A stretch of DNA of 64,000 bases from Asaia bogorensis NBRC 16594 (GTDB taxonomy: Bacteria; Pseudomonadota; Alphaproteobacteria; Acetobacterales; Acetobacteraceae). Position 1 is the stretch's first letter; the number at the start of each line of letters is the position of its first letter. The notes beneath the pieces were generated by a model. The model saw only the letters and a program-made list of their open reading frames with translations. It searched no databases and had not been told where the DNA came from. A program made the translations under genes and the position numbers. Shown here piece by piece: positions 43,082 to 43,555 of this stretch. Where the stretch lies: positions 1,795,001-1,859,000 of the forward strand of contig NZ_AP014690.1 in NCBI RefSeq assembly GCF_001547995.1, written 5' to 3'.

Positions 43082-43100
43082 AGACATCCGGCCAACAAAA

Positions 43101-43124
43101 AACCGGAGCGTTGCTCCGGTTTTA
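43101..43124 (+). terminator. Rho-independent terminator of gltA
   Basis: AACCGGAGC (43101-43109), loop GTT, GCTCCGGTT (43113-43121), then TTT. Nine perfect pairs, 20 bp past gltA, with an upstream A-run that could let it work in both directions. Confidence 0.9.
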
Positions 43125-43136
43125 GCCTGGCATGAC

Positions 43137-43161
43137 AAAAAGGCCTTTGACTCCGTCAAAG
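43137..43161 (-). terminator. Terminator of the Fur-boxed small gene
   Basis: On the minus strand CTTTGAC (43161-43155), loop GGA, GTCAAAG (43151-43145), GCC, then TTTTT (43141-43137). It lies about 88 nt past the stop of the 78-residue gene, closing a monocistronic unit. Confidence 0.7.
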
Positions 43162-43249
43162 ATCATAGCGTCGCAAGGGCTGGTTGCCCATTTAGGCTGC
43201 TGGACACGAAAAACTGTCAGCAAGTATCCCGCGCGGATGCCGCTGGAGT

Positions 43250-43486
43250 TCAGCAATCGCAGCCGGGCGTCGCTCCTTTATCCTGACGCACGATATGATG
43301 ATCGATCCATTCCGAGACCAGACGGCGCGCCTCATTGATGGACGCTTCAGGATGATGGATGCGATAAAGGGTCGTGCATGCGGTGAAAGCCTGGATGTCA
43401 GGCTGACCCACTTCCCGCAATTCTTCATACGCCGTGATCACGGCGCGTTCGCACTTTCGGGAAATGCGGTTGAGATCAACAGTCAC
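43250..43486 (-). CDS. Small Cys-containing protein behind a Fur-type operator
   Basis: A 78-residue protein of unrecognised family. It starts MTVDLNRISRKCERAVITAY, continues through an amphipathic helical middle (TTLYRIHHPEASINEARRLV) and ends with GCDC; Cys occur at 12, 37, 76 and 78. It has no signal peptide or membrane segment, so it is probably cytoplasmic. The start is GTG 43486 with AGGA 9 nt upstream; the longer open frame behind it crosses the promoter. Promoter, 7-1-7 Fur-like box and terminator all surround it, so it appears to be an iron-repressed single gene. Function unknown; metal handling is inference from regulation. Confidence 0.72.
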   Translation of the reverse strand: MTVDLNRISRKCERAVITAYEELREVGQPDIQAFTACTTLYRIHHPEASINEARRLVSEWIDHHIVRQDKGATPGCDC

Positions 43487-43502
43487 GCAAACAGATCCTA
43501 GT

Positions 43503-43517
43503 TGAGAATTATTATCA
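43503..43517 (-). promoter_or_regulatory. Fur-type 7-1-7 operator
   Basis: TGAGAAT-T-ATTATCA on the plus strand (TGATAAT-A-ATTCTCA on the minus strand) has one mismatch from the consensus TGATAAT-N-ATTATCA. It starts 8 bp downstream of the -10 hexamer and ends 16 bp before the GTG start, an expected place for a repressor. Confidence 0.75.
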
Positions 43518-43525
43518 ATTGCTGC

Positions 43526-43555
43526 ATTGTAAATCTTTTCCGATGGTAAATGCAA
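43526..43555 (-). promoter_or_regulatory. Putative promoter of the Fur-boxed gene
   Basis: On the minus strand TTGCAT (43555-43550) and TACAAT (43531-43526) are 18 bp apart. The -10 has one mismatch to TATAAT; the -35 is weaker. The Fur-like box lies at the expected transcription start. Confidence 0.6.

Follow-up and report, generated by a model that had tools for sequence, protein, structure and literature searches.

A conserved small cysteine and histidine protein under a Fur-type box in Asaia bogorensis and its Fur-tied relatives in the Alphaproteobacteria

A small gene and its control region in Asaia bogorensis

The window analysed here is a stretch of 64,000 nucleotides from the genome of Asaia bogorensis NBRC 16594. 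It contains a small gene, here called X, beside the citrate synthase gene gltA. The positions of X and of the features around it are collected in Table 1. The -35 and -10 hexamers are separated by a spacer of 18 nt. The encoded protein carries four cysteines (Cys 12, 37, 76 and 78) and four histidines (His 44, 45, 63 and 64).

Table 1. Features of the X locus, numbered from the first nucleotide of the window.
Feature	Position	Strand	Remarks
-35 hexamer TTGCAT	43550..43555	minus	Read from sequence; same in nine of ten aligned sequences, TTGCAA in the tenth (L081)
-10 hexamer TACAAT	43526..43531	minus	Read from sequence; TACAAT or TAGAAT in ten aligned sequences
Fur-type box TGATAATAATTCTCA	43503..43517	minus	Over the expected transcription start, just downstream of the -10 hexamer
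AGGA ribosome site of X	43496..43499	minus	Read from sequence
Gene X (78-residue Cys protein)	43250..43486	minus	Read from sequence; GTG start at 43486, 78 codons plus stop, stop codon ending at 43250
First-noted hairpin	43144..43162	minus	Chance level; not visible in relatives
GC-rich hairpin	43098..43123		A and T runs on both sides; equivalent in eight other Asaia sequences

X is a real gene under strong purifying selection, because its variable sites pile up on the third codon position and its dN/dS values are low. Nine of the ten aligned Asaia and Swaminathania sequences vary at 6, 2 and 63 sites of codon positions 1, 2 and 3, and dN/dS is 0.008-0.049 in 15 pairs drawn from six sister-species sequences. 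The 78-codon, GTG-started gene with a ribosome site that the preliminary description had read from the sequence is thus confirmed. The TTGCAT-18-TACAAT promoter proposed there was likewise borne out. Ten aligned upstream regions from Asaia and Swaminathania retain the promoter and box and differ there by one or two bases; the variants are a -10 hexamer TAGAAT in five and a box with TGAAAAT- for TGATAAT- in five. The X promoter is absent from the output of a general promoter scan.

The 3' end had been described as a T-tailed terminator of X, 88 nt past the stop codon. This hairpin (43144-43162) is at chance level, with two terminator-like sites found in a 2-kb stretch against a shuffle mean of 1.8, and none of the other nine Asaia and Swaminathania sequences in the alignment shows it. 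The claim is therefore dropped. The GC-rich hairpin further downstream is the probable terminator common to gltA and X.

Orthologues, fold and Fur-type box in the Acetobacteraceae

Orthologues of X, sought by profile as had been proposed, were found with the frame kept in 33 of 36 Acetobacteraceae genomes, the A. bogorensis genome included, and in 2 of 24 genomes from elsewhere in the class; the search gave no match in the other three Acetobacteraceae genomes. Scanning public genomes yielded 371 confirmed relatives, and the nearest named ones among the best 80 of these 371 are Asaia. C12, C37, H44, H45, H63, H64, C76 and C78 do not vary across the 63 proteins aligned, which are the window protein and 62 of 65 distinct proteins (L077, L081 and L135 were left out). 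Outside this set, two small genomes of the family (L049 and L050) have Tyr at H44 and at one of H63/H64, and the L047 frame stops short of the GCDC sequence.

An AlphaFold model built on the 63 sequences is a confidently predicted three-helix protein (mean pLDDT 87.1, pTM 0.77). The predicted helices span residues 3-25, 30-44 and 50-66, with C76 and C78 in a looser tail. Going by the helix order, C12 (in helix 1) and H45 (where helix 2 ends) may both point to one end of the bundle. The earlier statement that the protein belongs to no recognised family holds, as searches of Pfam, NCBIfam, PADLOC and the PDB gave none. In Pfam the window protein reached only RecO_C (E 0.19), below the cut-off of that family, and 32 members gave seven weak one-member matches (best E 0.0018, DUF7426), which were taken as chance. 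NCBIfam gave three weak matches to the 32 members (best 0.046), also taken as chance. No solved structure was matched by fold (best E 1.5); the best E was 0.43 for viral models by fold and 0.56 for the PDB by sequence. PADLOC and the phage records searched contained no match to X.

The Fur box reported at the start site was examined against the whole A. bogorensis genome. The sequence TGMRAATNATTNKCA with at most one mismatch gave 29 strand-matches at 17 places, and the same search with TGMRAATNATTNKCA read backward as a control gave 0, which bears out the box. The places include bfd, four TonB plug domain genes, a periplasmic binding protein, a catalase and an OprB porin. Several others lie inside genes with no evident role in iron (for example L166, L168, L169 and L175). 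The bfd box (L160, G000:C1:2795310-2795324) is a perfect 7-1-7 palindrome, TGAGAATAATTCTCA. This genome also has a second Fur-family gene (L158, G000:C1:100707-101078), which we take to be perhaps a Zur; it adjoins genes resembling those of a zinc-type binding protein and an ABC ATPase.

The preliminary description had proposed that conservation of the box be looked for before the orthologues, and it is recognisable in most of them. The best upstream box scores at least 11 of 14 in 65 of 79 named X loci, against 39 of 1580 shuffles, a comparison that is descriptive and no blind test, as the consensus was drawn after the sites were seen; the count leaves out L154, in which the start codon was not found. 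Fifty-eight of these 65 boxes begin 29-33 nt ahead of the start codon. Six of the 14 exceptions are Gluconobacter. In five Gluconobacter loci (L095, L098, L101, L103 and L105) the best score is only 7-9 of 14, and with no recognisable box there, the control of X may therefore have been lost or changed. In the deeper X lineages the box takes the form TGCGAnnnnnTCGCA. The position of the box over the promoter, the presence of the same box at accepted iron genes and its retention in orthologues make repression of X by Fur in the cell a well-supported prediction from sequence.

The wider family beside fur and metal genes

The Acetobacteraceae profile matched homologues in other Alphaproteobacteria. 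A wider profile, run on 387 genomes of the class, matched 48 at an E of 1e-5 or better. A search of 397 genomes across the phylum matched 11; eight matches are clear and all from Alphaproteobacteria, and three are marginal (E 3.4e-4, 6.8e-4 and 7.5e-4), two of them from outside the class. Four positions are near-invariant in 64 chosen homologues, namely C12 (61/62), H45 (61/64), P46 (62/64) and W60 (61/62). H44 is replaced by Tyr, Arg or Gln in some homologues, and C37, C76 and C78 occur only in the Acetobacteraceae branch. In a tree of the 64, the Acetobacteraceae come out as a single clade (97/100). Fur-linked homologues cluster on this tree (0 of 500 shuffles as low), yet the label requires six changes, and the plasmid copies at metal loci group with the third copy of genome G335; the tree is built on few columns and its deep forks are open. 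Two doubtful weak places, G104 (which has no HHP motif) and G424, were kept out of the tree set and are counted among the 46 places described below.

The family is apparently undescribed. We found no paper on it in the open-access literature. An iron transcriptome of Gluconacetobacter diazotrophicus defines a Fur regulon in the Acetobacteraceae (PMC9368920), and the portion of that paper available to us does not mention an X orthologue. The corresponding portions of a Magnetospirillum Fur paper (PMC3251581) and of a Gluconobacter screen (PMC12041372) contain nothing on X. Some plasmid copies are annotated just as 'hypothetical protein' and others have no annotation; the profile gives a family to such small genes, so far unnamed or unannotated.

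The wider-profile search yielded 51 gene places, of which 46 lie outside the Acetobacteraceae, and all 46 were examined. A fur gene stands directly upstream of X on the same strand at 24 of them, spread over ten family codes. Three of the fur neighbours were checked in Pfam, including one taken from a plasmid record, and PF01475 was confirmed in each. No fur was seen beside X in the Acetobacteraceae loci looked at. Genome G335 has three copies of X (L223, L225 and L249), and L223 and L249 each lie directly behind a fur gene. A Fur-type site upstream of fur was not found for most of the fur-X pairs.

Four of the 22 places without fur (L239, L243, L245 and L233, all of one family code, f36) have a perfect TTGAT-N4-ATCAA, and three more places (L240, L236 and L235) match it at nine of ten positions. 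We take this motif to be an FNR-type site; this and the other motif names used here, including Irr-like, are our own assignments. The perfect sites suggest an oxygen-type rather than a Fur-type control of X in these loci. L241 has a Fur-type site (12/14) and L238 a weaker Irr-like site (11/14, shuffle p 0.02). With three motifs sought in 46 regions, some weak matches are expected by chance, but the perfect FNR-type ones are not. A SufE gene lies near X in L238, and a ferritin gene is about 1 kb away in L241. In L224 the gene directly ahead of X encodes a solute-binding protein that reads like a ferric-iron binder; Pfam places it in general solute-binding families only.

X was found at 14 plasmid places, nine of which were opened. 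In three Azospirillum plasmid loci it lies between a metal-sensing repressor and the Co/Ni exporter gene dmeF (PF02583 and PF01545 confirmed). It stands behind the manganese exporter gene mntP on an Indioceanicola plasmid, a fragment of mntP was also seen, and one plasmid homologue has an RND metal efflux operon nearby on the opposite strand. Indioceanicola profundi has four copies of X (L178, L179, L192 and L193) on three plasmids, mostly in or near metal loci. At several X loci, such as L179 on a plasmid, L229 and L232, no metal gene is in view.

The finding is thus larger than first stated. X is the Acetobacteraceae branch of a wider Fur-tied family and not an isolated unit beside gltA. The conserved Cys protein, the Fur-type box and the iron role of the first interpretation stood, the last supported by the retention of the box and by the linkage of homologues outside the Acetobacteraceae to fur, while its tie to gltA and its small RNA did not; it had not noticed that several His residues are invariant, that homologues are linked to fur or that others are linked to further metal loci.

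Proposed function and comparison with known systems

Most descriptions of Fur treat it as a sensor for which iron alone suffices. X probably helps cells to handle iron and similar metals, because its homologues often adjoin fur or metal pumps and because of its Fur-type box. In the mechanism we propose, X would be a small cytosolic three-helix protein produced under iron shortage. Iron-loaded Fur would block X by occupying the box that covers the transcription start; when iron drops, the block would lift and X would accumulate. The protein would bind a divalent metal, here Fe(II), through Cys 12 and His 45 plus the branch-specific Cys and His residues, and would deliver the metal to Fur-type sensors and other iron clients or withdraw it from them, and so tune the occupancy of the sensor. 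We tentatively favour this reading, in which X is induced by iron starvation, binds metal and serves Fur and other metal circuits as an accessory, at a little short of an even chance; the binding, the metal and the contact with Fur are what we infer. The accessory role is suggested because the common thread among the loci is a sensor or transporter neighbour, or an apparent iron- or oxygen-type control. We count for it the box class common to X, bfd and the TonB plug genes, the 65 of 79 boxes, the invariant Cys and His, fur at 24 of 46 places, the plasmid dmeF and mntP loci, the purifying selection and the compact helical fold. Against it stand the near-universality of just C12 and H45, which are fewer ligands than a full metal site requires, the restriction of C37, C76 and C78 to one branch, the replacements at H44, the three of 36 genomes with no match to X, the 14 of 79 loci without a good box, the loci without a metal gene and the lack of a Fur-type site ahead of fur in most fur-X pairs.

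Direct contact with Fur is a serious rival to the metal-accessory reading, even if we regard it as unlikely. X would here be a Fur anti-repressor or helper, or in the plasmid branch a partner of the metal-sensing repressor, and any metal would be secondary; in Asaia, low iron would give more X and a faster release of Fur, a positive feedback. The adjacency of fur and X at 24 of 46 places, with two pairs in one genome (L223 and L249), and the position of X behind a PF02583 repressor in three loci agree with such a contact. There is also a precedent in Fpa (YlaN), an iron(II)-binding protein that lifts repression by Fur in Staphylococcus aureus (PMC11559061). However, X is near-universal in the Acetobacteraceae yet has no adjoining fur in the loci inspected there, and the copies with mntP or FNR-type sites have no adjoining sensor. 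The broader proposal that X is the founding member of a hitherto undescribed family of partners for metal sensors is doubtful to a similar degree. These would be small Cys/His three-helix proteins that set the metal occupancy of a metalloregulator, chiefly Fur, by direct contact, with a plasmid branch put to new use at Co/Ni and Mn loci. A part in Fe-S or redox chemistry under iron shortage, either like that of Bfd or in sparing or repairing Fe-S enzymes, is distinctly less probable. It would suit the four conserved Cys of the Acetobacteraceae branch, the SufE, ferritin and small apparent [2Fe-2S] ferredoxin-like genes near some homologues and the apparent FNR-type sites of some branches, but no match was found to Bfd or another Fe-S family, C37, C76 and C78 are not retained outside the Acetobacteraceae, and few Fe-S genes lie nearby, at distances of up to about 1 kb.

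Two further readings start from the locus itself. The preliminary description had pointed to gltA as an iron-linked neighbour, and X might then control central metabolism through the adjoining citrate synthase. The gene gltA is indeed present in 69 of 98 X loci examined. We nevertheless reject a functional link and consider it very improbable, since X has no adjoining gltA in Neokomagataea (L119, L120 and L126), L131, L033 and L036, in a survey that read the neighbours for part of the loci because ORF picking lost the small gene in many, and its distant homologues adjoin fur instead; the proximity is local synteny. It had also been suggested that the 3' UTR yields a small RNA, and the functional product of X could be a Fur-controlled RNA from the 3' part of its transcript. 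X resembles the RyhB-like RNAs as a short transcript under a Fur-type box, here with the 88 nt between the stop codon and the first hairpin, but this origin is exceedingly improbable. Rfam found one tRNA only over the window and nothing at the X 3' UTR, the stretch past the stop codon has no conservation between Asaia species in the aligned sequences and folds like its own shuffles (z -0.22), and selection acts on the codons. The small RNA was rejected on these grounds. Unlike the RyhB-like RNAs, X has a protein as its conserved product, and a conserved structured RNA was not found.

Three known groups of small proteins invite comparison with X. Fpa (YlaN, DUF1507, PF07408) of the Firmicutes is likewise small and tied to Fur and iron shortage, as far as these traits can be deduced for X. 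X differs from it in its near-invariant Cys and His and in its place next to fur or behind a Fur box. Membership of X in this family was rejected, as PF07408 matched neither X (E up to 1) nor 32 members (E up to 0.1) nor anything in the A. bogorensis genome, with Bacillus subtilis as the positive control, and there was no fold match to a solved structure. Our best reading is that X may be comparable to Fpa in role, not in ancestry. Bfd, the bacterioferritin-associated ferredoxin (PF04324), is also a small Cys protein and has the same class of box in this genome; X differs by its three-helix model and was rejected as a Bfd, having no PF04324 match at E up to 1 and no CxxC pair among Cys 12, 37, 76 and 78. 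The RcnR/CsoR-type repressors (PF02583) are small helical proteins of metal loci, and one stands directly before X in the three Azospirillum plasmid loci. X was rejected as such a sensor, with no PF02583 match in the window protein or in 32 members; FrmR appeared in the fold search only at E 7.3.

A conserved small protein that lies behind fur in many Alphaproteobacteria, and elsewhere under a Fur-type, FNR-type or Irr-like site, would be an unnoticed part of the circuit. If X is a direct partner of Fur, the Alphaproteobacteria would own a counterpart of the Firmicute Fur antagonist. This opens the question of dedicated metal-sensor helpers outside the Firmicutes, which can be put to the test in Gluconobacter oxydans and Azospirillum brasilense. 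The fur-X pair is present in A. brasilense Sp7. In one A. brasilense record (L177) the fur frame before X looks shifted and in the Sp 7 record (L195) it is whole, which is probably a sequencing difference.
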